DNA of 46,993 nt from Smithellaceae bacterium (lineage in GTDB: Bacteria; Desulfobacterota; Syntrophia; Syntrophales; Smithellaceae). The position numbers and the translations under genes are program-made. Positions 17,258 through 31,061 of the stretch are shown here, piece after piece; position 1 is the stretch's first letter; each line of letters starts with the position of its first letter. The notes under the pieces are model-generated. The model was not told the DNA's origin. It did not search any database and was given only the letters and a program-made list of their open reading frames with translations. The stretch spans positions 1 to 46,993 of the forward strand of contig JAQUVQ010000018.1 of the NCBI GenBank assembly GCA_028693285.1, in the 5' to 3' direction.

Positions 17258-19090
17258 ATGAGCGCACAACCGGTAAAAATCCCCACAACCTTAAGCGCGT
17301 CGGAATTCTTTCTGAAGATCGTTGAAATCGCGCCGCGGCTTCCGTCGATGATCTTCAACCTGATCAAAGGACTCAAAAGCATCGGCGGCAAAACCAACAA
17401 CTCCTGGGGACTGGAACTTGAAAAGATCGCCGCCCGGTTCCCGGACAATCCCGCGGTCAAGTCCCCCGACGGAACCCTCACCTACCGGGAGCTGAACGAG
17501 CGGGCCAACCGCTTTGCCCATTACCTGATCTCCAAAGGCGTTTCCCGCGGCGATGTGGTGACGCTTTGCTTTGAAAACCGTCCCGAACTGCTGGCCGCCT
17601 ACTGCGGCTGTTCAAAAGTCGGCGCCATCGCCTCGCTGATCAACACCAATCAGCGTGGAGACTCTCTGGTGCACAGCTTCAATCTCAACCGGGGCAAAGT
17701 TGTCCTGATCGGCGAGGAATGCTGCGAGTTTTTCATCGAGGCGCGCGCCGGAATAGATCTTTCCCAATCGACGCTTGGAATGGTCAGGGACGCGGGACAA
17801 TTCCAGACAAAAGACGTCCCTGACATTACGGGCGAGCTGGCGCGTCAAAGCGGCGCAAACCCCTCCACCACGAAAAGCGTCACCCTGAAAGACACCTCTG
17901 CATATGTCTACACATCCGGAACAACCGGGGGCCTGCCCAAGGCGGCGGTCATCATCAACAAACGGACTCTTTCGGCCATGTTCTGGTTCGGGAAATTTGT
18001 CATGCCCGTGAAGCCCACGGATACGATTTACATTCCTCTTCCCTTTTTCCACACCAACGCCATCACCGTCGGATGGCCGCCGGCGCTCTATAACGGCGCG
18101 GCGGTGGCCCTGCGCAGAAAATTCAGCGCCAGCAAATTTCTGGACGACGTCCGGCAGTTTCAGGCGACGCACTTCGTTTACGTGGGAGAAGTCTGCCGCT
18201 ATCTGATGGCGACGCCCGCGAAGCCCGACGATCATCAGACGACGCTGAAATACATTTGCGGCAACGGGCTTCGGCCGGATATCTGGATGCCCTTCAAGAA
18301 GCGGTTCGGCATTGAAAAAATATACGAGTTTTACGGCGCGGCCGAAGGGGTGGGCGTCTTCACGAACTTTCTGAACATCAACTACAGCGTGGGCACGAGC
18401 GTGACGCCCTTTGCCATCGTGGCCTACGACACCGAAAACGACCGGCCCGTCAAAGACGAAAAGGGCTTCCTGAAAAAAGTCGGCAAGGGCGAGACCGGGC
18501 TTCTGATCATGGAAATCTCGGAGAAAACACCCTTCGCCGGATATTCGGACAAGAAAAAAACGGAAGAAAAAATATTCCGGAACGTGTTCAAGAAAGGCGA
18601 TCTGTGGTTCAACACCGGCGACATGCTCCGGAACATGGGCTTTGGCCACGCGCAGTTCGCCGACCGGCTGGGCGACACCTTCCGCTGGAAAGGCGAAAAT
18701 GTGGCCACGCAGGAAGTCGAAAAAGCGATCGACACCTTCCCCGGCGTCAAGCAGTCGGCGGTTTACGGCATCTCCATGCCCGGCAGCGACGGAAAGGCCG
18801 GAATGGCCGCCGTCATTCGGGATGAAAACGAGCCGTTCGATCTGGCCCGGCTGGCAGCCCACCTGAAGGCGAGCCTGCCGAAATACGCCGTGCCGATCTT
18901 CATCCGTTTCGTTCCGGATTTTGAATGGACCGCCACGCACAAAATCAAGAAGACCAACCTCAAGAATGAGGGCTATGATCCGGCGCAGGTCAGGGAGGAA
19001 CTGTACGCGCTTCTGCCGGGGAGCGAAACCTATGTGCCCGTCAGTGATGAAATCTATCGCAACGTGACGGCCGGAACGTATAAATTTTAA
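17258..19090 (+). CDS. FATP-type long/very-long-chain acyl-CoA synthetase
   Basis: 610 aa. It belongs to the fatty acid transport protein/very-long-chain synthetase branch of AMP-forming enzymes. AYVYTSGTTGGLPKAAVIIN is the AMP-binding motif and YEFYGAAEGVGVFTN replaces the usual YGxTE motif as in FATPs. FNTGDMLRNMGFGHAQFADR and GDTFRWKGENVATQEVEKAI form the VLACS signature. An N-terminal hydrophobic/amphipathic stretch (about 20-45) may touch the membrane. The start is ATG 17258; the frame open to 17114 has no conserved content. Its stop overlaps the stop of the convergent Bmp-Cache gene within TTAA. Confidence 0.9.
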   Translation: MSAQPVKIPTTLSASEFFLKIVEIAPRLPSMIFNLIKGLKSIGGKTNNSWGLELEKIAARFPDNPAVKSPDGTLTYRELNERANRFAHYLISKGVSRGDVVTLCFENRPELLAAYCGCSKVGAIASLINTNQRGDSLVHSFNLNRGKVVLIGEECCEFFIEARAGIDLSQSTLGMVRDAGQFQTKDVPDITGELARQSGANPSTTKSVTLKDTSAYVYTSGTTGGLPKAAVIINKRTLSAMFWFGKFVMPVKPTDTIYIPLPFFHTNAITVGWPPALYNGAAVALRRKFSASKFLDDVRQFQATHFVYVGEVCRYLMATPAKPDDHQTTLKYICGNGLRPDIWMPFKKRFGIEKIYEFYGAAEGVGVFTNFLNINYSVGTSVTPFAIVAYDTENDRPVKDEKGFLKKVGKGETGLLIMEISEKTPFAGYSDKKKTEEKIFRNVFKKGDLWFNTGDMLRNMGFGHAQFADRLGDTFRWKGENVATQEVEKAIDTFPGVKQSAVYGISMPGSDGKAGMAAVIRDENEPFDLARLAAHLKASLPKYAVPIFIRFVPDFEWTATHKIKKTNLKNEGYDPAQVREELYALLPGSETYVPVSDEIYRNVTAGTYKF

Positions 19091-20880
19091 CGTTCGACGC
19101 CGTCTCCGGCAAAGGCGGCGGCCAGGCGCCAGGGCGTGCCGTGCAGTTCCACGGTGCGCCATTCCACCGTTTTGAAAATCGGCGCTTCACCGACTTTTCG
19201 GTAAAAACGGTAAACGCCCGATCCTTCGCGGGTATCGGCCATTCTGCGGCAAAGGGCAATCAGCTCCGGAAACGGCTGGTATAACGGATCGGTGAAGATG
19301 TTGAGTCCGATCTGTTTCGCATCCACGTCATAAATAAAAAGGCCGTCGGTCTGCATCAGGAAAATGGAAACCGGCATGTAGGCGGCGATCGGTCCGATCA
19401 TGCTCGAAAGCAGGTATTCCGGCGCAAACAGAGCCGAGACCGATCCCGAAAATTTACGGTCTTTTAAAAATACGGGATGATGAATCACGACCGCCCGGGG
19501 GCCTTCCACGGACTGGAATGAGCCGCTCAATACAGGCGTGTGGGTTTTGAACAGCCGGACCATGTGCGACTGTCGGCTGATGTCGGCGCCTTCGGACGAC
19601 CGGTGCGCCGGCGGCTCCACCGCCAGCATGATTCCCGAATCGCTCACCGTCTCACAGTCGATGATATAGGGATTTGCCCTGTAAAGCCCCTGGAGAATGC
19701 CGCGCGCAAAATCGCCCCGCAGGTCTTTGCCGGCCAGCACCTTTGCGCCGTGCCGCAAATCATTGTCCAACCGGTTCAGCGTCGTCTGAATCTCGGATTG
19801 CAGACGGGACAAAAGATCCCGCAATTCCTGTCGGGAAAGCGCCGTCCGGTGTCCGCTCGCTTCGGGAACCGCCAGCTCGCCCGACACAATTTTTGCCCGC
19901 AGCGCCTGAACCTGCTGATGAATGCTTTCTGGAATCAGCTTCTTATTCTGGTTATTGTAAACAAATCCGACGCCCCGTTCCTTCAGCCCCAGCGTTTTGA
20001 GACCTCCCGAAAAGTTTCCGTGAGCGCAGGATTGAACAGCCTCGAACACCGCCCCGTCGATATTTTTCAGCATGCTCGTCAGGACACGGCCCGGCGCCTG
20101 CGCGCTCTGGTCGATATCCGCTCCGATCGCCAGACGATTCATCTTTCTTGCCGCCTGAAAGAGGCCCGCTCCCGTTTCACCTGCGGCATGATAAATGACG
20201 TCCGCTCCGTTTTTATACATGCTCACCGCGATCCGGTAACCTTTCCGCGGATCCCTGAAGGCCTGTCCGGTGATGCCTGCATAGCGCGAATAAATCCGGA
20301 TGCCCGGACGAACGGCTTTTGCGCCCGCCTCATACCCTGCCTGAAATTTTCGAATAATCGGGCTGTCCATTCCGCCGATAAAACCGATTTTCCCGGACCG
20401 GCTTTTCAGAGCCGCGATCGCCCCGACCAGAAAGGACCCTTCCTCTTCCCTAAACGTCAGCCCCGCAAGATTGGGCGGCGGCGAGATGAGGTTTCCTCTC
20501 TCATCGTAATTCGCGCTGTAGTCCACCACGACGAATTTTTTATCCGGATGCCGCCCGGCCAGATGATCGAATTTTTCCGAAAAGGCAAAACCGACGCCGA
20601 TGATCATTTCCGCGTCGGAAGCCGCGGCCCCGCTTACGGCATAATCCAGCTCGAGGTTTCGTTTATGCTCGACATAGACGGCCTTCACGCCCAGCTCCGC
20701 AACCGCTTTTTCCATGCCGCTGTATGCGGAATCGTTAAAACCGCCGTCTCCCCTGCCGCCCATGTCAAAGATCAGGACCACCTTCAGCGGCGATGAATCC
20801 TGTGCTTTCGCGTCCTGAACAACCGCCGGAGAGCCCAACAGGATCAGCCAGCACAAAAAAAGCACCCATGCCTTTTTCAA
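19087..20880 (-). CDS. Exported Bmp-family binding protein fused to a Cache-like domain
   Basis: 597 aa. A signal peptide ends near AKA-QD; there is no lipobox and no later membrane helix, so it should be free in the periplasm. Residues about 30-345 match Bmp/PnrA purine-nucleoside-binding proteins: KVVLIFDMGGRGDGGFNDSA, IGFIGGMDSPIIRKFQAGYE, ADVIYHAAGETGAGLF. About 350-400 is a coiled linker. About 400-590 resembles a Cache sensor: DSGIMLAVEPPAHRSSEGAD, VIHHPVFLKDRKFSGSVSAL, LQTDGLFIYDVDAKQIGLN-like segment. I do not know this fusion, and no permease or ATPase lies nearby. The start is TTG with AAGGAG 8 nt upstream. Last gene of the caspase run, 38 nt after DUF4384. A ligand-sensing role is inference. 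Confidence 0.8.
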   Translation of the reverse strand: MKKAWVLFLCWLILLGSPAVVQDAKAQDSSPLKVVLIFDMGGRGDGGFNDSAYSGMEKAVAELGVKAVYVEHKRNLELDYAVSGAAASDAEMIIGVGFAFSEKFDHLAGRHPDKKFVVVDYSANYDERGNLISPPPNLAGLTFREEEGSFLVGAIAALKSRSGKIGFIGGMDSPIIRKFQAGYEAGAKAVRPGIRIYSRYAGITGQAFRDPRKGYRIAVSMYKNGADVIYHAAGETGAGLFQAARKMNRLAIGADIDQSAQAPGRVLTSMLKNIDGAVFEAVQSCAHGNFSGGLKTLGLKERGVGFVYNNQNKKLIPESIHQQVQALRAKIVSGELAVPEASGHRTALSRQELRDLLSRLQSEIQTTLNRLDNDLRHGAKVLAGKDLRGDFARGILQGLYRANPYIIDCETVSDSGIMLAVEPPAHRSSEGADISRQSHMVRLFKTHTPVLSGSFQSVEGPRAVVIHHPVFLKDRKFSGSVSALFAPEYLLSSMIGPIAAYMPVSIFLMQTDGLFIYDVDAKQIGLNIFTDPLYQPFPELIALCRRMADTREGSGVYRFYRKVGEAPIFKTVEWRTVELHGTPWRLAAAFAGDGVER

Positions 20881-20918
20881 TCTTCCATCTCCTTTTCCGT
20901 TGGCTGCAAAGACGGCCC

Positions 20919-21779
20919 CTACTTCCTCGTCTTCACCACCGCTTTGACTTCGGAAAATTCCGCGGCCAGTCCCGCGTCGTCCGACGCGGCCTTGATCTTG
21001 ACGCTCCTTGTTTTCACGCCGATGTCTTTTGATCTGGTTTGAACGGCAAATATGCTTCCCTCATCCTTCAGCTTCAAATCGCCCAGCTCCGAGACGCTGG
21101 CATAGACGATGATGTTTTCCTCGCCGAAGGGCGGGTTCACTTCCAGCTCAAACTGATCCTTGCCGGAAGGGATTTCGTAAATCACGCCGCCCTGGAAGTA
21201 ATTGTCCCGGCGGTAGGGATTGGGCAGGAGCTGCAGGTTGTTTTTCACCGCGTCCCGGTAAATCACACGCGCAAAGAAAGGCTTGTTGCCCTTGAGATAA
21301 ATTCTGATCTTCTCTCCGGCGGCATAAGACGTTTTGTCCGTCCAGACCTTCACGGTCAAAGGCAGAGACGGATCATCCAGCGCGGCATCCGCAGCCTTTG
21401 CCCCGGCCTTTTTCATCGCCTTTTCATCCGGAATGACCTCCGCTTTGAGCTTGATCCGGTAGCAGTCGCCCTGCCCCGGGTCTTTATACCAGCCCTTTTC
21501 CAGCGTCTCGAGAACTTCGACGGTGGCGTTGGCATAAGCGGACACCAGGTCTTTCTGCAGCTCGAAGTCTTTCACCTCCGTCGCGGATGAAACATAGGTC
21601 TTGACCGATTCGACGGCGTTTCGCTTTGCATCCGCCAGCGCCGCGGTTTCCGTCTGCTTGCGGGACTTGTCGTCCCCCATGCAGGCGGAGCCTTCGGCGA
21701 TCTTGATGGTGGATTGCGCGGCATAAACCGGCGCCGCCAAAAGAATGATCATTGCCGCAAGAAATAAAATTTTACGCAT
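20919..21779 (-). CDS. Exported DUF4384 protein
   Basis: 286 aa with a signal peptide cleaved after APVYA. The middle (about 20-120) is a helical/beta region like LPP20/FlgT-type domains (ETAALADAKRNAVESVKTYV). The C-terminal half is DUF4384: LTVKVWTDKTSYAAGEKIRI, then a block on FARVIYRDA and LLPNPYRRDNYFQGGVIYEI and GEENIIVYAS. DUF4384 is often found in or beside caspase-domain proteins, which fits the gene 18 nt upstream. The start at 21779 is chosen over an ATG 15 nt earlier because GGGAGG precedes it by 5 nt. Role unknown; probably a periplasmic partner or adaptor of the caspase. Confidence 0.85.
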   Translation of the reverse strand: MRKILFLAAMIILLAAPVYAAQSTIKIAEGSACMGDDKSRKQTETAALADAKRNAVESVKTYVSSATEVKDFELQKDLVSAYANATVEVLETLEKGWYKDPGQGDCYRIKLKAEVIPDEKAMKKAGAKAADAALDDPSLPLTVKVWTDKTSYAAGEKIRIYLKGNKPFFARVIYRDAVKNNLQLLPNPYRRDNYFQGGVIYEIPSGKDQFELEVNPPFGEENIIVYASVSELGDLKLKDEGSIFAVQTRSKDIGVKTRSVKIKAASDDAGLAAEFSEVKAVVKTRK

Positions 21780-21797
21780 GGAAACCTCCCTCATCGT

Positions 21798-24700
21798 TTA
21801 TCTGCCAAGCACCAGCGGAAAATCCATTCCCCGGGAATCCACCACGGGGTACTGGGCTTCCTGTTTATACTTTTTTGTGATTTCCGGCAACTGCTCTTCC
21901 ACGTAAACCATCAGCTTGCGGACGGTGACGGGTTCGCCCGGACCCGCCGCCTTGCCGCCCAAGCCCGCAAGCAGCGTATAGGTGAAAACGCCGTGCCCCA
22001 GATCTTTCACTTCGGCGGCAAACTGGTCTTTGGTGGACGCGGCCACGACATGCACGCCCGTGGAGCGCGATAGCTGGGAAAGCGCTTTGCGGTCCTCAAA
22101 TCCGCGGAAAGCAATCAGCACGGCGCCCGATTTGCAGGCATCCACCAAAAGCAGGATTTTTTGCGCTTTGATGTTTTTGATATAGCCGGACAGATCATCG
22201 GATGAAACACCCTTCGTCCGCACATCCGCTTCCCGTTCGGGATAGGTCAATTCATGCGGGATGAAGTACCATTTATCGTTCAGGCTCTCACCATGCCCCG
22301 CGAGATAGATCAGCACCGCATCCTGTGGATTGGTATTTTGCAGCTCGTTCAATTGAGAGACGATATTCTCCCGGGTGGCCTGCTCACTGTAAATTTCGCG
22401 GATATTGACTTTCCTGAACAATCCGCCGCCCCGCTGACTGAAGAAGCCGGCAATGCTCTTTGCATCCGGCTCGGCGTAGTTGAGGTTGAGCGCGGGATTC
22501 TTGTATTTGTTGATGCCGACCGCCAGGACATAAAGAGACACTTCCTTGGAAGGGGCCTTAAGCCGGACCATCAGTTCATAAGGATTGGATTCCGTCCTGT
22601 CTCTGCTGAATCCCACGGCCCGAAACGTATTCGCGCCATCGACCAGGGACACGGAATATTGCCGGACCGTTTCCCCGCCCCGGGGGACGATTTTGACGGC
22701 GCGTTGATCGCCGCCGACAACCTTGCCGTTATGATAAAGCCGAATTTCGTCGATGCCGCCGCCCGTGTCTCTGGCCGCCACGGCAACGGCCAGCGTATCC
22801 GTATTCAATACGCTTCCCGCCGCGGGAGACGTGATCCGGACCTCCGGCGGTGAAAGGATGCCTTTTCGGATGTCGGCCGTCGCTTCCACTTTCTTGCCCT
22901 GCAGCACGGAGGCCACATATACGGGATTGAAAAACTTCTCGAAGAGATTGTCGATGGAATAGACATTCAATCCGATGCGAACATTCAGGTGTTTTGCGCC
23001 GCCCGGAGAGGCGTTGAAATATCCTTCCGGGGTGATCACAATCCATTCACCATTGGTGAAGCTGACGAATTGGGCGATTTCTTTGCCGGACGCGATATCC
23101 CACTGGCGCGCCGTGCCGTCCTTGCTTGCGGAAAGAATGTAATTTCCATCCCGCGAGAAGGCCAGGGATTTAATCTCGTCCGTATGTCCCTTGAATGTTT
23201 TGACCTCGCCGCCCTGACGGAGATTCCATAATTTCACGGTGCCGATCCAGTCGCCGGAAACGACGAACTTTCCGTCGCCGGAAAGCGCCAGAGAAGTGAT
23301 GAAACCGGGATGACCCGGAAAGGATCTTATTTCCCGGCCCGAGGTCAGATCCCAGAGTCCGAGGATGCCCTGATTGCCGCCTTCGGCCGCAACGATCTGT
23401 TTTGAGTCGGCGGTAAAAGCCACCTGGCTAAAGCCTTCCCTTTTTTGATTCGCCCGCAGTCTGATGGATTGCTTTCCCGTGGCCGTATTCCAGATGACCA
23501 GGACTCCCCGTTCTTCATCATGAGAGTATGATGCTGCAGCAACAAGGCTCCCATCCGGAGAAAAAGCCGCGTACCCGTCAGATGATGACAGACTCACGTG
23601 ATCAGGGAAATTTACCAGTTCGATCGAACGGCGACTCCGGACATCGAGCAGGCTGACTTTTCCTCCGTCTTTCTCCGCCAAAAGCGCGTACCTGCCGTCG
23701 GGAGAAAAAGTAACGGCCTGTTGCGGGCTGTCGTAGGCCGTCGGATAGCGATCGGCGGCGTCGCTGATGATCGCCCGGTCTGTTCGGCTGTCGATCACCT
23801 GATAGCCCTTGTCGATGATTTTGAAAAAGCGCCGATTGCCCCATTCGTTTTGCCCTTTCGCCCACCAGTTGTCGAATGGCTCGATTGTCCGGCGGCCGGT
23901 CAAACGGCCCTGGCGGCGGTCAAACACCGCGAGCTCCTCATTTCCGGCGATTTTGACCTGCTCCTGGTCCGCTGAAAAGAAAGCCAGATTGATTCCCTGG
24001 ACATCGCCGCCGAAGCTTCTGATTTTTCTGTGCTTCGCGGCATCCCAGAGGGAAACCTTATCGGTCGCGGAAACGGCGATCAACCGGCCGTCCGGTGAAA
24101 AACGCACCGCGGCATCGTCAAGTTTATGATCATCCGTCATGCCGGCTTCCACCTGTCCCGTAACCATATCCCAGAGAATCATGACCGGAGGGAAGGAGGA
24201 AACGGCAACAAAGCGCCGCCCGTCGGGAGAAAAGGCGATCGTGCCGTTGGTTTTAACACTGCCTGCCGGAAAGCCGCTTAGCGCCTTTGCCTGTTTTCCG
24301 CTGCCGACATTCCAGAAAAAAATATTTCTGTCCTCGCCGATGGACGCTACAAACTGACCGTCGGGAGAGAACGCGACCTTGCTGACTCCTTCGGTGTGTC
24401 CGGCAAAGCGGTGTATTTCTTTTCCCGACTTTACCTCCCAGAGTCTGACGGTGTCATCCTTTTTACCCTTGTTCAGATTGGGCGTCTCGCTTCCCGATGC
24501 CAGATATTTTCCGTCCGGTGAAAAGGCGATCGTGTGAATGCTGGAGGAATGCCCTTTGAAGATCATCAACTCGCGGCCGGTATTGAGATCCAGGAGCTGA
24601 ATGTTGCGGAAAGTAAGATCCCCGCCGGGGACCTTCTCGTCCTGGCCGCCCACCACGGCAAGAGACGTCCCGTCGGGAGAAAAAGCAGCCGCAATCGCGA

Positions 24701-25094
24701 GGAGCGGCTTCCCCTTTTTGCCAAGCCTCCTGATTTCCCGACCGGTCTTTACATTCCATAACGCGGCGCCCCCCTTGGATTCCAGGGAAAGCAGGGATTG
24801 GCCGTCGGGACTGAAGGCGACAAAATCAACCATGTCCCGGGCGACGAATGTCCGAATCTCACGGCCCGTTTCCACGTCCCACAGCTTGATGTTTTTATCA
24901 GAGCTTCCCGAAACGAGATACTTCCCATCCGGCGAAAAGTCGATGGTGTTGACATTTGTGGAATGCCCCTTCTGCACAAAAATATCCGGCCCCTGCGAAC
25001 TTCCCGCCGGGACAAGCGGTTTGGCGCAAAAAGCTTCGGTTGTAAAAACCATAATTATCAAAAAACAATAAACAAAAACTAACTTCCTGGTCAT
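21798..25094 (-). CDS. Exported WD40-repeat protein with active-type caspase (C14) domain
   Basis: 1098 aa. The signal peptide (residues 3-24) ends at AFCA. About 13 WD40 blades follow to residue 690, each with FSPDGKYLVSG...IKLWD-like motifs, enough for two propellers. Then come a short conserved segment (EWIVITPEGYFNAS, about 710), an Ig-like domain (ITSPAAGSVLNTDTLAVAVA) and the caspase fold from about residue 870 (YVLAVGINKYKNPALNLNYA). The catalytic His is H934 in YLAGHGES (codon 22293-22295) and the Cys is C987 in LLVDACKSG (codon 22134-22136). Both are present, so an Arg/Lys-directed cysteine protease like metacaspases is plausible. The start at 25094 has AAAGGG upstream. It lies 124 nt after the pseudocaspase gene and 18 nt before DUF4384. 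The signal peptide places it outside the cytoplasm. Confidence 0.9.
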   Translation of the reverse strand: MTRKLVFVYCFLIIMVFTTEAFCAKPLVPAGSSQGPDIFVQKGHSTNVNTIDFSPDGKYLVSGSSDKNIKLWDVETGREIRTFVARDMVDFVAFSPDGQSLLSLESKGGAALWNVKTGREIRRLGKKGKPLLAIAAAFSPDGTSLAVVGGQDEKVPGGDLTFRNIQLLDLNTGRELMIFKGHSSSIHTIAFSPDGKYLASGSETPNLNKGKKDDTVRLWEVKSGKEIHRFAGHTEGVSKVAFSPDGQFVASIGEDRNIFFWNVGSGKQAKALSGFPAGSVKTNGTIAFSPDGRRFVAVSSFPPVMILWDMVTGQVEAGMTDDHKLDDAAVRFSPDGRLIAVSATDKVSLWDAAKHRKIRSFGGDVQGINLAFFSADQEQVKIAGNEELAVFDRRQGRLTGRRTIEPFDNWWAKGQNEWGNRRFFKIIDKGYQVIDSRTDRAIISDAADRYPTAYDSPQQAVTFSPDGRYALLAEKDGGKVSLLDVRSRRSIELVNFPDHVSLSSSDGYAAFSPDGSLVAAASYSHDEERGVLVIWNTATGKQSIRLRANQKREGFSQVAFTADSKQIVAAEGGNQGILGLWDLTSGREIRSFPGHPGFITSLALSGDGKFVVSGDWIGTVKLWNLRQGGEVKTFKGHTDEIKSLAFSRDGNYILSASKDGTARQWDIASGKEIAQFVSFTNGEWIVITPEGYFNASPGGAKHLNVRIGLNVYSIDNLFEKFFNPVYVASVLQGKKVEATADIRKGILSPPEVRITSPAAGSVLNTDTLAVAVAARDTGGGIDEIRLYHNGKVVGGDQRAVKIVPRGGETVRQYSVSLVDGANTFRAVGFSRDRTESNPYELMVRLKAPSKEVSLYVLAVGINKYKNPALNLNYAEPDAKSIAGFFSQRGGGLFRKVNIREIYSEQATRENIVSQLNELQNTNPQDAVLIYLAGHGESLNDKWYFIPHELTYPEREADVRTKGVSSDDLSGYIKNIKAQKILLLVDACKSGAVLIAFRGFEDRKALSQLSRSTGVHVVAASTKDQFAAEVKDLGHGVFTYTLLAGLGGKAAGPGEPVTVRKLMVYVEEQLPEITKKYKQEAQYPVVDSRGMDFPLVLGR

Positions 25095-25151
25095 AAATAC
25101 CCTTTCATACGCCTGGAGCAAGGAATCTTGCCAACCTAAGGTGTGGACTTG

Positions 25152-25216
25152 CCACCTTTAGGTGGTTGCAACTCCTTGGTCTCCCTCCTTCCATCCACCA
25201 TGCACCATACACCATC
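25152..25216. repeat. Palindrome and 7-bp triple repeat between the two caspase genes
   Basis: CCACCT (25152-25157) and AGGTGG (25160-25165) form a perfect hairpin around TT. Further right CACCATG, CACCATA, CACCATC repeat with period 7 at 25196-25216, directly after the pseudocaspase stop. The 124-nt gap has no obvious promoter or terminator T-run. Confidence 0.7.
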
Positions 25217-25218
25217 CA

Positions 25219-28200
25219 CTACTTCACTTTCCCGATGGAAAACGCCTGTCCGCTGATGGAAACGACCGGATACCGGGTATGTTTGAAAATCTTCTCCGAC
25301 TGTGCCGGCATTTCAACGCGCACATAGGCGGTGAGATCCGTGCTACGGATGCTGCCGGTTTTATCTCTGTCTGCCGCACCCCGCAAGCCTTCGGCGACCA
25401 GGTGGACGAACAGGCTGTGCCCCTGATAGCCCGCCACCGCCTCCGAAAGAGGCGCGGATGAAGCCAGAACGGTTAACCCGAGCGTTCCGCCGAATATCTT
25501 CAGAGCTGTCTCTTCACTCATTGCCCTCGTCTGGAAAGCCGCTTGCGCATCCGCACTCTGAATGCGGGGATTGCAGGCATCAATCAGAATCAGTTTTCCG
25601 GCCGTCGGAATATTGCCGAGAGCCTCCATCAGCTTTCGCAGGGAGATGGCGTCCGTTTTGAGTTTTTCCGCACTCAGCGAATTCACATTGGATGTCAGAA
25701 GAAAATATTCCCCATCCTCAACAACCGCATATGCGGCAATATACAGGACAAACAGATCCTCCGCGCGCAGGGTCTGATGTGTTTGAATCTCCCGAAGGAT
25801 CGCCTCCATCGTTGTTTCTTCCGGCCGGGTCATGGTCTTGACGGCCGGCTTTTCATAGATTCCTTCCGATGCCCCCTTGAGCGCGCCCGCAACAAGCTCC
25901 GCGCTCGCCGCGGCAAAGGGAAGCTTGAGCCCCGGATCTTTGTATTCACCGACGCCGATGGCCAAAACGGCAAGCGACGGCCCGGCCGCCGCGGCATAGG
26001 AGGCTGTCACTACTTCCCATGCCGCCTTGTTGCTCCGCATGGTGTTGTCTCCGTTCAATGCTGCGGCGTGGATGACATTTTTCCCGCGGGCAAGCTTCAG
26101 GGGATAGGCCCTGAACACGGCCCGCTGCGACTTTTCCGGCTCCGAAACCGAACGGGAATCCAGAACCACGGCGGTCCCGTTCAGATAAAGACGGATGTCC
26201 CCGATGCCGCCGCCCTGCTCGTCGAGGTTCAGCCGGACGTGAACTTCATCCGCGGCGACGGAGGCGGGCGTATCGACAATCCTCACTTTCGGCGGTTCTT
26301 TTTCGTCCGTCAACTTCGGCAAATCTTTCAGGGAATCTCCGGCCAGCGCCCTTTTGACCACTTCGGGACGGTAAAAGGATTCCCGGTAGTTTTCGATGCC
26401 GTAAACCGAATCTCCGACGCGGACGTTGATATGGCGGTCTCCTCTGGACGAGGCGTTGTAATATCCTTCGGGCGTCATAACAATCCATCCGCCGTCGGTG
26501 AAACTGACAAGCTGCACAATCTCTTTGCCTGCGGGCAGATCGTATTCGCTGATGGAAATCCCGTGCCGAAGGATGGCCCTGCGCCGGTCGGACGTCAGCG
26601 ATACGCTGAGGACTTCCTGTTCCACTCCGATGGAAGCGTTTTTCCTGCCGGACGTCAGGTCCCACACCGTCATTTCGTTCTGATCTTTGTCCACAGCGAC
26701 CATCATTTTTTTGTCGCGGGAAACGTCAAACGGTCCGGGCGGCACAAAATCGGCAAATTTCCTCGTCAGGCGGCCGGTCGCCGCATCGATCGTGTAAAAT
26801 CCTCCTTCGAGATCGGCACAGAGGATGAGCCTTCCGTTCAAGGAATAATAAGATTTTGCCGCATTCTTCCCGCACTCCAGAACTCTCTCCAACTGGCCGG
26901 AGGAGGCGTCCCAGATCATATTCCGGGAAAGCAGGAAACGGCCGTCGGGGGAAAAAGCCACCCAGGGATAGGGAACGTTGGGTTGGGCAAACGCCAGCAG
27001 GCTTTTCCCTGTCGCGGTTTCCCAGACGCCCGATCCGCAGGCAAGGCGAAGGCCGTCGGGGGAGAAGGCCAGAATTCCGTTTCCGTAATCGACGAAATCG
27101 CCCGCATTCAACTCGTCGGCGTAGATGGGCTTGTAATCCGTTTTCACTTCGGACACTTTCTGTCCGTCGCTCAGATTCCAGATCCGGATAACGCCGGAAC
27201 GGGCAAGCGCCGCCGCAAAACGCCGATCGGAAGAAACCGCCGTGGCCAGAATCATTTCCTTCTCCATCGCCGGCAGACTCTTTTTCAGTGTGCCCGCGCC
27301 GATGTCCCAAAGTTGAACCTCACCGGCAACATCTCCCGTTACGGCAACGCTTCCGTCCGGCGACAAAGCCAGCGAACTGATCTGGGCCGAGGACTTGCCC
27401 GTAAAAGGCGGCAGCGGCCCGCCGCTTGCCCTGTCAAAGGCCTGCAGGACGGCGCCCGACGGCGCAACGACTTTTCTCCCGTCGTACGTCAGCAGTCCGT
27501 GCTTGGCGGAGAAGCGCCGAATCTCGAGACCGGTCCGGACATCCCACAGAACGATGTCTGTGTCATAACGGCTCTTCGTCAGGACGATGCCTTCTTCCGC
27601 GCAGACGGAAAGGGATAGAAAAGCGCCGCTCTGCCCGAAGCGGCCCAGAATGCCGCCGCCGGCAATGTCCACGAGCGTGCTCTTTTTAGCGCTGTCGAGA
27701 TAGAGCTTTTGTTTCTTCGGTCCGGCCGACGGGGCAAATGCCTGCGGCCCCCGTTCGGTCAGCTCCCAGTATTCGTTGGCCAGAAAATATTTCCCGTCTT
27801 CGGAAAAATGAAAATCCGCGCTCATGTATTTTTTGACTTCACGCCCTTCCGGCGTCAGGACTTTGATCATCCGGTGGTCCAGCACTTTATCGTCATAGGC
27901 GATCAGCAGATGGCGGCTGTCGTCCGCAAAGCCGATGGATAGGGCGCGGCCGGGAAACGGGAAGGTTTTTTGAACAGCGCCGGAATCCAAATCCCAAAGC
28001 CGGACCTCGCTGCTTCCGTCAAGGCTTAAAATCCTTCGGCCGTCCGGCGAGATTGCGGCCCTGACTATTTTTTCCCGGTGGCCGGCAAACGTCCTTAGCA
28101 GCGTACCGCTTTGCGGATTCCACAACTTCAGGGTTTTGTCCTCGCCGGCCGAAAGAGCGTATTTGCCGTCCGGGGTGAAGAGAACGGCGGCAACTCTTTC

Positions 28201-29418
28201 CGTGTGCGCCTGAATGGTTTCCAGCAGTTTCCCGGAAGTTTTATCCCACAGGCGGATTTTTCCGTCCGGCGTCCCGCTCAAAACATGTCGGCCGTCGGGC
28301 GACATCACCAGCACATAGCCGCTGTCGGCTTGGCTTTTGAGCGCCCTCACCTCTTCACCGGTTCGCGCGTCCCAGATCCGTATGTCGCCGTCCGCATCTC
28401 CGGATACGGCAAACCGTCCGTCCGGCGAAAAACGGGCAAGCGTAACCCTCGCCCGATGGGCAAAGGCCCGAACTTCCTTTCCCGCTTCGATGTCCCAGAG
28501 CCTCAGGGTATGGTCGCGGCTTCCGGAAAGAACATATTTCCGATCGGGTGAAAAGGCGAGTGATTCGATTTCCTTCTGATGACCGGCAAACACGGCCGCG
28601 GCCTTGCCTGTTTTCAAATCCCACACGCGGATGGTTTTATCCCGCCCGCCCGACGCGGCATAGGATTCGTCCAGAGAGAGGGCTACCGCATCGATCCGGT
28701 CTGTGTGGCCGTCCAGCGTGAAAAGAATATTCCCCGTGGAAAGCTCCCACAGGATCAGTTTTTTGAACCGGGTATCCGACGGATCTTCGGGGACGGCGGA
28801 AATCATCTTTTTGCCGTCCGCGGTCACCAGGTTTTTGTGTCCGAAATCGTATCCCGAAAAATATTTTTTGACGGGCGCCCCTTCAGGCAGTTGCTCCGCG
28901 GGCAGAACCTTCCCCTCCGAGAGCTGCGCGGCGTAAAGCCTTGAAGAGACGATGGCGCGGACAACAGAGCCGTCAAAAGAAACGGGGTCAATGATCATCG
29001 GTTCTTTTTCACCGCTTAAGGAAAATCCTCCGGTCCGCGCGCCGCCGTCAATGTTCCATATTCCCACGCCGCCTTTTTCGTTTACGGAAAAAAAGGATTT
29101 GCCGCCGGGCAGAAAATGAACGTACAAGATTCCTTCACCGTCTGGAAACGTGCGGATCAGCCTTCCGCTTTGGGCGTCCCACAGCTTGACGCTGCCGTCG
29201 CTGCTTCCCGAAAGAATGAACCTGCCGTCGGGCGACCATTCCACCGCATTTACGGAACCCGAATGCCCTGCCGGAATGAAGATTTCCGCCTTCTTTTCGG
29301 TTCCGCAGGGTGATGGGGGGCTATCCCCTGCCGATACAACAACAGGGAAAAGAATCCATAAAGAAAGGAAGCAAAACCATATCGTCGATAAGCGAGAAAA
29401 TCTCCTGCCGGTAACCAT
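25219..29418 (-). CDS. Exported giant WD40-repeat protein with degenerate caspase domain (pseudocaspase)
   Basis: 1399 aa with a signal peptide ending VVVSA-GD. Roughly 18-20 WD40-like units span residues 50-1010. The same tail as the neighbour follows: a GGWIVMTPEGYYNAS segment, an Ig-like domain and a caspase fold from about 1150 (LAVLAIGVGEYKDPGLKLPF). The segment aligned with YLAGHGE of the neighbour reads YIAAYAV, so the catalytic His is Tyr (Y1230, codon 25729-25731), while Cys is kept (C1282, LILIDACNP). Such a domain should not be catalytic by the usual mechanism. The start at 29418 has AAGGGAG 5 nt upstream. First of the two caspase genes in the run; it probably arose by duplication and may act as a scaffold, decoy or regulator of the active one, which is inference. 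Confidence 0.88.
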   Translation of the reverse strand: MVTGRRFSRLSTIWFCFLSLWILFPVVVSAGDSPPSPCGTEKKAEIFIPAGHSGSVNAVEWSPDGRFILSGSSDGSVKLWDAQSGRLIRTFPDGEGILYVHFLPGGKSFFSVNEKGGVGIWNIDGGARTGGFSLSGEKEPMIIDPVSFDGSVVRAIVSSRLYAAQLSEGKVLPAEQLPEGAPVKKYFSGYDFGHKNLVTADGKKMISAVPEDPSDTRFKKLILWELSTGNILFTLDGHTDRIDAVALSLDESYAASGGRDKTIRVWDLKTGKAAAVFAGHQKEIESLAFSPDRKYVLSGSRDHTLRLWDIEAGKEVRAFAHRARVTLARFSPDGRFAVSGDADGDIRIWDARTGEEVRALKSQADSGYVLVMSPDGRHVLSGTPDGKIRLWDKTSGKLLETIQAHTERVAAVLFTPDGKYALSAGEDKTLKLWNPQSGTLLRTFAGHREKIVRAAISPDGRRILSLDGSSEVRLWDLDSGAVQKTFPFPGRALSIGFADDSRHLLIAYDDKVLDHRMIKVLTPEGREVKKYMSADFHFSEDGKYFLANEYWELTERGPQAFAPSAGPKKQKLYLDSAKKSTLVDIAGGGILGRFGQSGAFLSLSVCAEEGIVLTKSRYDTDIVLWDVRTGLEIRRFSAKHGLLTYDGRKVVAPSGAVLQAFDRASGGPLPPFTGKSSAQISSLALSPDGSVAVTGDVAGEVQLWDIGAGTLKKSLPAMEKEMILATAVSSDRRFAAALARSGVIRIWNLSDGQKVSEVKTDYKPIYADELNAGDFVDYGNGILAFSPDGLRLACGSGVWETATGKSLLAFAQPNVPYPWVAFSPDGRFLLSRNMIWDASSGQLERVLECGKNAAKSYYSLNGRLILCADLEGGFYTIDAATGRLTRKFADFVPPGPFDVSRDKKMMVAVDKDQNEMTVWDLTSGRKNASIGVEQEVLSVSLTSDRRRAILRHGISISEYDLPAGKEIVQLVSFTDGGWIVMTPEGYYNASSRGDRHINVRVGDSVYGIENYRESFYRPEVVKRALAGDSLKDLPKLTDEKEPPKVRIVDTPASVAADEVHVRLNLDEQGGGIGDIRLYLNGTAVVLDSRSVSEPEKSQRAVFRAYPLKLARGKNVIHAAALNGDNTMRSNKAAWEVVTASYAAAAGPSLAVLAIGVGEYKDPGLKLPFAAASAELVAGALKGASEGIYEKPAVKTMTRPEETTMEAILREIQTHQTLRAEDLFVLYIAAYAVVEDGEYFLLTSNVNSLSAEKLKTDAISLRKLMEALGNIPTAGKLILIDACNPRIQSADAQAAFQTRAMSEETALKIFGGTLGLTVLASSAPLSEAVAGYQGHSLFVHLVAEGLRGAADRDKTGSIRSTDLTAYVRVEMPAQSEKIFKHTRYPVVSISGQAFSIGKVK

Positions 29419-29463
29419 AGATGCTCCCTTCATGTTGAACGTGTGGACATCATAAGCCAAAGG

Positions 29464-29961
29464 TCATACGATGCCCGCGCCGCAAAGCTGTTGAATTTTC
29501 CCATGCTGACGATTTTTCTGAAAGTAAGGATCGTGTCTGCTGTGAATAAAAGCAAAAAAAAGGAAAAGAAGCAGAATCAGCGCAAAAACCGTCAGCAGAT
29601 TCCCCCTCATTCGCCCCAAGGCCGGCATGAAGCCGGACAAATCGCCCTGCCCTTCCCTGCCGATTTGCGCAAACGTGTAGATCAGGCCCAAAACCAACGG
29701 CGGCCCCAGCAGAGGAAACACCGACGCCGTCGCCGCGGCATAGAACCGCCAGGAGTTCAGAGGACGGCCGCCCCGGCGCCGCATTTCGGCGTAAGCCCCG
29801 GCCGTCATCAAAATCCAGGAAGCCGGGTAAATCATCTTGAAAAATACATCCGCGCCGGACGAGGTCGTCATGCCGGCAAGCAGCGCCGCGGCATGACAGA
29901 TGCATCCCGCGCTCAGAGCGTTTCTTCCAAAAACGGTAGTGGCGATTTCGCGCGCCGGCAT
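29464..29961 (-). CDS. Small integral membrane protein of unknown function
   Basis: 165 aa. Hydrophobic segments: about 17-30 (AGCICHAAALLAGM, weak), 43-58 (FKMIYPASWILMTAGA), 72-98 (FYAAATASVFPLLGPPLVLG and on) and 120-140 (LLTVFALILLLFLFFAFI). That gives three or four membrane helices. The ATG at 29961 follows GGAGG at 5 nt and overlaps a TAA stop of the upstream remnant frame as TAATG. It lies 45 nt before the pseudocaspase gene. Not recognised. An overlapping longer frame (29450-30025) is Arg/Cys-rich and looks non-coding. Confidence 0.7.
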   Translation of the reverse strand: MPAREIATTVFGRNALSAGCICHAAALLAGMTTSSGADVFFKMIYPASWILMTAGAYAEMRRRGGRPLNSWRFYAAATASVFPLLGPPLVLGLIYTFAQIGREGQGDLSGFMPALGRMRGNLLTVFALILLLFLFFAFIHSRHDPYFQKNRQHGKIQQLCGAGIV

Positions 29962-30031: not shown

Positions 30032-30586
30032 TCATGGCGTATTGTCCGGAGGCCTTAACCGGTCGTAGTAGGCCATCATGGCCGATTCGTACGCCTCGCC
30101 GAAGTCGCCCGTTTTCTCGCCTTTCTCGATGGCGCCCCTAATGTCTTTCGGCAATAGGGCGATATTCCGCCGCTGGTCTGCATCCCAGGCCGGAGAAGAA
30201 AGATACGGAGCGCACAGCATCACGCCCTTTACGCCGAAGGGCTTTCGATCCAGCAGGTAGGAGCAGGCCAGCGCGCAGCCCCAGGAAAATCCCATCAGGA
30301 AAACGTCGTCAAGCTTTAAGGCGGCCCGCACTTCCGCCAATTCGGCGACATAATTTTCCACCGAATAAAAATTTTTGTCCGGAGCCCGGTCGCTTTTGCC
30401 GCAGCCCAACTGGTCGTAAAAAAACACCGGACGGTCTTTCCACAGCGGCTCGAGACCGTTATCCATGCTGGAAAAGCCGGGGCCGCCGTGAAGGACGAGA
30501 ACGGGCATCCTGTTCCCGCCGCCGCCGCGAACCCCATACCAGAGGCTGCCGTTGGCCGTGCGGATCTTTCCTTCGCGGCTGCTCAT
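30032..30586 (-). pseudogene. Truncated alpha/beta hydrolase, proline-iminopeptidase type
   Basis: 184 aa. The N-terminal half is a good match to S33 proline iminopeptidase/amide hydrolases: LVLHGGPGFSSMD (oxyanion HGGPG), FYDQLGCGKSD, and the nucleophile elbow MGFSWGCALA with Ser. Family members are about 290-300 aa; this one stops after MMAYYDRLRPPDNTP, right where the cap domain normally continues (RHVCRLDPWP-like). The catalytic Asp and His are therefore missing. It overlaps the lipoprotein stop by 4 nt and is followed by a 70-nt remnant in another frame. Most likely a decayed or deleted gene; a short functional product cannot be excluded. Confidence 0.75.
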
Positions 30587-31032: not shown

Positions 31033-31061
31033 ACTATACGAAGGATGGCTTTCCCTGTCAA
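31033..31061 (-). promoter_or_regulatory. Consensus promoter producing a leaderless lipoprotein mRNA
   Basis: Minus strand: TTGACA (31061-31056), 17-nt spacer, TATAGT (31038-31033), then six bases and the ATG at 31026. The predicted start of transcription coincides with the A of the ATG. Confidence 0.82.

Follow-up and report, generated by a model that had tools for sequence, protein, structure and literature searches.

Do four neighbouring genes, two of them coding for caspase-like proteins, form one sensor-protease system outside the cytoplasm, or do the caspases belong to a larger and more variable family? The question is raised by a stretch of 46,993 nucleotides (nt) of a Smithellaceae bacterium (the window; GenBank assembly GCA_028693285.1, contig JAQUVQ010000018.1), which is one entire contig (C41) of a 2.68 Mb genome in 95 contigs. 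On its minus strand lie genes for a WD40 pseudocaspase, a WD40 caspase, a DUF4384 protein and a fusion of Bmp and Cache domains (Bmp-Cache), separated in this order by gaps of 97, 3 and 38 nt. The genome has four caspase-domain genes, the two outside the window being on C45 and C55. A preliminary description of this DNA had read the set as a single system; open reading frames (ORFs) and Pfam agree with it on the four same-strand genes and on the lengths of 1399 and 1098 amino acids (aa) for the two caspases. The answer that we reach, at about even confidence and from sequence comparison, is that the locus may represent a single copy of an array of Sec-exported WD40-caspases that is variable and extends over the genus and order; these proteases would form a repertoire in the envelope whose recognition modules can be exchanged. 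Related genomes, contigs and loci are given by our own handles (G, C and L numbers).

Exchange of heads and tails

The comparison covered 60 WD40-caspases from related genomes, each split at the linker GEWIxITPEGYxNAS into a WD40 head and a tail of immunoglobulin (Ig)-like and caspase domains. Most of these genomes are metagenome assemblies, in which repeats may break or misjoin contigs. The alignments and trees show that heads and caspase tails recombine at this conserved linker, which follows the last WD40 blade. Between the window caspase and that of G005:C142 the heads are 91% identical (aa) and the tails 39%; at the DNA level an identity of 92% over 1836 nt drops to about half. Against the caspase of G031:C120, the window protein is 67% identical in the head and 36% in the tail, and G031:C120 carries a window-kind head on a G005-kind tail. 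Many other pairs have tails that are 80-91% identical and heads near background, about 25-30%; among C45, G005:C269, G009:C65 and G023:C47 the tails are 85-91% identical, with most head pairs near the ~25% background.

A crossover can be followed within the paralogue of the window caspase on C45, which has the same linker. This gene is a mosaic with a head that is 93-98% identical (nt) to that of G005:C64 and a tail that is nearer to G005:C269, with identities of ~78-97% as opposed to 61-78% over most of its length, and the switch lies around codons 680-760, at the linker and the start of the Ig-like domain. The trees of the two parts conflict: imposing the head clade on the tail data cost 512 log units (p-AU 7.6e-131), and the head data under the tail clade lost 377 log units (p-AU 3.5e-4); as the groups were picked after seeing the identities, these values are a measure of strength and no blind test.

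Three sources of head variation or recombination were considered and rejected. No reverse transcriptase match was found in the genome that would point to a diversity-generating retroelement, the WD40 genes are without tandem DNA repeats of the kind that would allow internal repeat shuffling as in HET genes, and a REP-like element between the two caspase genes, considered as the recombination site, shows no significant fold and is matched in the rest of the genome by short, partial stretches only. A limited search of the literature found no description of head/tail exchange in orthocaspases.

Export

By a heuristic of our own rather than by SignalP, each of the four proteins shows the parts of a signal peptide at its N-terminus: basic n-region, hydrophobic h-region and AXA-like site. 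The same heuristic accepts 55 of the 60 WD40-caspase relatives, nine of which have a lipobox, and four of the five failures are cut by a contig end. The signal peptides that had been proposed for all four proteins are supported at this level, and all four are probably exported.

The caspase domain and its dead copy

An AlphaFold2 model of the active caspase tail (pLDDT 81, pTM 0.83) has the caspase domain of MALT1 as its best match in a fold search (Z 21.6, root mean square deviation 2.3 over 191 residues), followed by caspases and metacaspases, while a sequence search of the same tail against solved structures gave no caspase match. Peptidase_C14 (PF00656) is matched by the caspase with 58.9 bits (7.9e-16) and by the pseudocaspase with 27.8 bits (2.5e-6), against a cut-off of 21.4 bits. 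His and Cys are both present in 55 of the 57 tails aligned, and the two remaining tails, with Tyr and Cys, belong to the window pseudocaspase and to the orthologous protein of G005. The dyad H934/C987 given in the preliminary description is exact, being equal to H943/C996 of the longer ORF, and only one of the two window caspases has it, as stated there; in the other, Tyr stands in place of His (YIAAYA as compared with YIASHG) and Cys is kept. Orthologues of the pseudocaspase in G031, G034 and G013 have intact dyads. In the tail alignment the position two residues ahead of the Cys is always Asp, and Asp886 of the caspase is conserved in active tails and aligned to Ser in the pseudocaspase; by analogy with MALT1, these residues may belong to an acidic pocket for Arg/Lys specificity.

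The pseudocaspase is under purifying selection. Between window and G005 the ratio of nonsynonymous to synonymous substitution rates (dN/dS) is 0.22 for the head and 0.34 (0.23-0.51) for the caspase domain, and between window and G012 it is 0.20 over 1147 codons. Since the active tail pair C45-C269 has a dN/dS of 0.10, the range of 0.20-0.34 describes a protein that is kept, although less constrained than this active pair.

Pseudo-orthocaspases are already known (PMC6426788). Members of this class may lack one catalytic residue or both; in the commonest form, Tyr/Ser, both are gone. The change of His to Tyr in the window and G005, in a fold that is otherwise conserved, places the protein among them; unlike the commonest form it keeps the Cys, and the loss was seen in only two related species. 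Dead caspase relatives that regulate live ones have been described (c-FLIP and TbMC4, PMC6426788), and by analogy the dead copy might regulate the live one here.

Models of defence-related caspases also give matches. The caspase of EACC1-associated conflict systems (NF047832) is matched with 77 and 45.6 bits, under its cut-off of 140, and the PADLOC model PDLC02987 matches the caspase tail only (1.4e-15, profile positions 3-174 of 453), which shows homology and is no demonstration of a defence role. The anti-phage caspase effectors of PADLOC are cytoplasmic, whereas the N-terminus of the window caspase is signal-peptide-like.

Partner genes and turnover of the locus

The set extends beyond one strain. 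It has a conserved place: one side carries LEA2 and/or an abhydrolase, a membrane protein and the pseudocaspase, while the other side has Bmp-Cache as well as an AMP-dependent ligase. Closely related genomes of the Smithella group share the set. G005 has it at this place, divided among contigs C43, C142 and C102, G012 incompletely as far as contigs C32 and C75 reach, and G013 contiguously in a different order (DUF4384, caspase, caspase, Bmp-Cache).

Bmp-Cache is an optional neighbour that elsewhere is usually a lone gene. G011 has DUF4384 and Bmp-Cache without caspases, G008 has caspase and DUF4384 beside the ligase at the same place without Bmp-Cache, and full-length relatives on five contigs of other lineages (L045 and L047-L050, with L050 cut by its contig end) adjoin neither caspase nor DUF4384. 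Close relatives of the gene occur in Smithellaceae and Smithella, and it is under purifying selection. Its Bmp part matches 7x0r and PnrA-type proteins, and its Cache part matches the solved structure 5ere.

That DUF4384 often accompanies caspases, as the preliminary description says, is borne out by the co-occurrence of the two in genomes, but outside the genus mostly not by their positions. Across 59 genomes, 24 have both, 2 have DUF4384 only, 7 have caspases only and 26 have neither (Fisher 3.7e-8, kinship ignored). DUF4384 orthologues are common in the order, but outside the genus they mostly lie away from caspases, and DUF4384 was rejected as an obligatory caspase partner on this ground. 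In G022, G023, G031 and G034 the gene adjoins a pyrD-like gene, as read from its sequence. The protein model is too weak (pLDDT 62) for a firm claim on its fold, and the N-domain at best resembles Lpp20 (5ok8) in a weak Foldseek match. Two side observations concern this gene: a deletion in G019 (L040:7626-8528) joins the N-terminus of DUF4384 in frame to the C-terminal Cache part, with no caspase between, and a pair resembling HEPN/MNT toxin-antitoxin genes was read by eye upstream of DUF4384 in G013 and G019 (L038:380-1375; L040 near 7000).

A steadier partner of the caspases than either Bmp-Cache or DUF4384 is the small membrane protein at 29464-29961, which was absent from the preliminary description. 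One homologue each is found in 12 of 59 related genomes, adjoining WD40-caspases in nine of these and DUF4384 with Bmp-Cache in a tenth (G011); nine out of 12 is far above chance when a rough 1% per gene is assumed. Other proteins also recur near the caspases, namely a lipoprotein-like protein of ~150 aa (IGPVPVDVVMIDNELYFVLEEER) and a 274-aa protein between WD40-caspase genes (L129, L132, L136 and others), and ankyrin-repeat proteins.

Comparison of the locus between genomes shows that whole caspase genes have been lost or replaced, as read from the remnants left behind. The last ~33 codons of a window-like tail persist in three genomes, immediately ahead of DUF4384 in G009 and a short way upstream of it in G007 and G015. 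In G004 and G050 the same tail type still precedes DUF4384. At the former caspase site of G009, G007 and G015 (L127, L130 and L131) there are radical-SAM proteins, an ABC transporter and a peptidase-like gene. G050 is a genome of another family, and its copy (L137:9828-11081), at a contig end, is 89% identical to the window in the caspase tail and 78% in DUF4384, which may be due to horizontal transfer or contamination. The distribution of WD40-caspases is patchy, with none found in G006, G014, G020 and others and up to 20 per genome in G027.

The features of the locus are collected in Table 1. The domain assignments are above curated Pfam cut-offs, including the WD40 repeats, both Peptidase_C14 domains, Bmp (3.9e-66), HK-GC-Chemotax_sensor (3.6e-33), DUF4384 (6.2e-21) and the Ig-like Big_7 (4.2e-9), which in the active protein separates the WD40 head from the caspase domain. 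Further upstream, an alpha/beta hydrolase at 30032-30586 is shortened to 184 aa in the window, split into two frames in G005 and full-length (288 aa) in G012. A near-consensus sigma-70 promoter (11/12) on the minus strand at 31033-31061, just before the LEA2 gene, is a candidate start point for a transcript through the caspase genes.

Table 1. Features of the WD40-caspase locus in the window
Feature	Position	Strand	Basis or remark
Small membrane protein gene, 165 aa, weakly DUF2189-like	29464-29961	minus	directly upstream of pseudocaspase
Predicted exported WD40-pseudocaspase, 1399 aa from ATG 29418	25219-29460	minus	ORF; Pfam WD40 and Peptidase_C14, 27.8 bits; dyad Tyr/Cys
WD40 head of pseudocaspase, approximate limits	26536-29283	minus	Pfam WD40; dN/dS 0.22 against G005
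Tyr codon replacing the lost His, pseudocaspase	25729-25731	minus	alignment; Tyr in G005 orthologue too
Retained Cys codon, pseudocaspase	25573-25575	minus	alignment
Predicted exported WD40-caspase, intact dyad, 1098 aa from ATG 25094	21798-25121	minus	ORF; Peptidase_C14, 58.9 bits; Big_7; MALT1 Z 21.6
WD40 head of caspase, approximate limits	23097-24989	minus	91% aa identity to G005:C142 caspase head
Conserved linker GEWIVITPEGYFNAS after last WD40 blade, head/tail exchange zone	22995-23054	minus	breakpoints; alignment
Caspase tail, Ig-like and caspase domain, YLAGHG/VDAC type	21801-22994	minus	39% identity to G005:C142 tail
Catalytic His codon, caspase (H943 of 1107-aa ORF; H934 from ATG)	22293-22295	minus	alignment
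Catalytic Cys codon, caspase	22134-22136	minus	alignment
Predicted exported DUF4384 protein, alpha/beta N-domain (Lpp20-like at best) and DUF4384 beta-sandwich	20919-21794	minus	Pfam; model
Predicted exported Bmp-Cache fusion, optional neighbour rather than core part	19087-20880	minus	Pfam; solved relatives 7x0r, 5ere

Relation to known systems

Exported WD40 caspases as such are already known: the part of the study by Asplund-Samuelsson et al. (2012, PMC3501461) drawn on here describes WD40 orthocaspases/metacaspases and suggests that they act extracellularly. The window proteins resemble these in the p20 His-Cys dyad, the WD40 repeats, the N-terminal signal-peptide-like helices and the abundance in Deltaproteobacteria, and are set apart from what that part describes by head/tail exchange at a fixed linker, by tandem arrays and by the partner membrane protein. 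Fungal NLR/HET receptors with WD40 repeats (PMC4986451) likewise are tandem or paralogous families in which a WD40 recognition part is recombined with different effectors. In contrast to these, the proteins described here are exported, their WD40 blades are not internally repeated in DNA and no NOD/STAND NTPase was seen; no NTPase family was among the best 25 Pfam matches of each full caspase protein (all propellers) or among those of the separately scanned C-terminal parts. Polymorphic toxin systems (PMC3482391) also consist of exported multi-domain proteins in which the C-terminal effector is replaced by recombination, but here all tails are of one caspase superfamily and no immunity gene pairs were identified; DUF4384 does follow the caspase in the window, in the position of a polymorphic-toxin immunity gene, but is mostly apart from it outside the genus. 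Neither the fungal WD40 receptors nor the polymorphic toxins fit in full. As for Bmp-Cache, its Cache domain is clearly related to that of the PBP-Cache fusion 5ere (Extracellular ligand-binding receptor), and its binding domain to Bmp/PnrA-type proteins (7x0r, 2fqw); unlike 5ere it has a binding domain of the Bmp/PnrA type, and the match is limited to the Cache part of 5ere.

Possible roles of the exported caspases

In the recombining envelope repertoire proposed here, each protein runs from a predicted signal peptide through a WD40 propeller head, the conserved linker and an Ig-like domain to the caspase domain. The head may bind a particular protein or surface target in the envelope and either present this target to the caspase tail or activate the tail by binding it; the tail would then cleave after basic residues, and an exchange of head and tail would re-target the protease. 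A dead tail could serve as a binding-only partner or decoy, and DUF4384 and the small membrane protein may be envelope accessories which anchor or fold the proteases, with Bmp-Cache as an optional ligand-binding neighbour. Several points weigh against this repertoire. The dN/dS of the compared heads is ~0.2, and point-by-point diversifying selection was not seen between those pairs. The combination of a WD40-A head with this tail is found only in the window assembly, so that a local misjoin is possible, even if each half-combination is supported independently elsewhere. The location outside the cytoplasm rests on sequence heuristics, and tandem paralogues could give rise to such exchange neutrally. 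PDZ domains in relatives, seen by eye and not by hidden Markov model, would fit ordinary envelope proteolysis too. A bolder version, which we regard as unlikely, would have Smithella and its relatives use an outward-facing, recombining WD40-caspase repertoire which recognises non-self surfaces, be they those of phage, predators, rivals or partner methanogens, and executes through proteolysis, an NTPase-free exported counterpart of the fungal WD40 immune receptors with dead tails as decoys or inhibitors.

A possible but rather doubtful explanation is ordinary proteolysis in the envelope: the proteins would serve housekeeping or stress responses in the periplasm, much as Deg proteases that have beta-propeller adaptors do, and the exchange would be a neutral by-product of tandem paralogy. 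Sec export, the PDZ-like stretches at the N-termini of several paralogues and the purifying selection on heads and tails are all consistent with it, while the patchy distribution, the background-identity heads beside tails that are ~90% identical and the loss of genes with scars at one locus argue against it. The four-part sensor, in which Bmp-Cache would bind a nucleoside and another ligand and report via DUF4384 to the active caspase as tuned by the dead one, seems very unlikely to us. The predicted export, the pairing of a live with a dead caspase and the recurrence in relatives stand, as do the ordered genes on one strand in the window, in G005 and in the part of G012 that is covered, the selection on Bmp-Cache and the precedents of c-FLIP and TbMC4; Bmp-Cache as a built-in sensor does not, because it is solo in other lineages, missing from the G008 site and without caspases in G011. 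A further point against the four-part sensor is that three genomes have an intact dyad in their orthologue of the dead caspase. It is just as improbable that the genes are a degenerating mobile island in a chance neighbourhood, with one caspase already dead. The loss of the His, the DUF4384-Cache remnant of G019, the truncated abhydrolase adjoining and the scars in three genomes would agree with decay, but the pseudocaspase has an unbroken ORF of 1399 codons and a dN/dS of 0.20-0.34 against two species, and related species have retained the set at this position.

For the biology of exported bacterial caspases, exchange at a fixed linker offers a concrete handle on their role, as a head could be transplanted and the target observed for a change. 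In an uncultured syntrophic group of methane communities, the locus also provides a natural His-to-Tyr caspase that selection has maintained next to an active caspase, and it connects caspases with DUF4384 and with a membrane protein that is so far unstudied.

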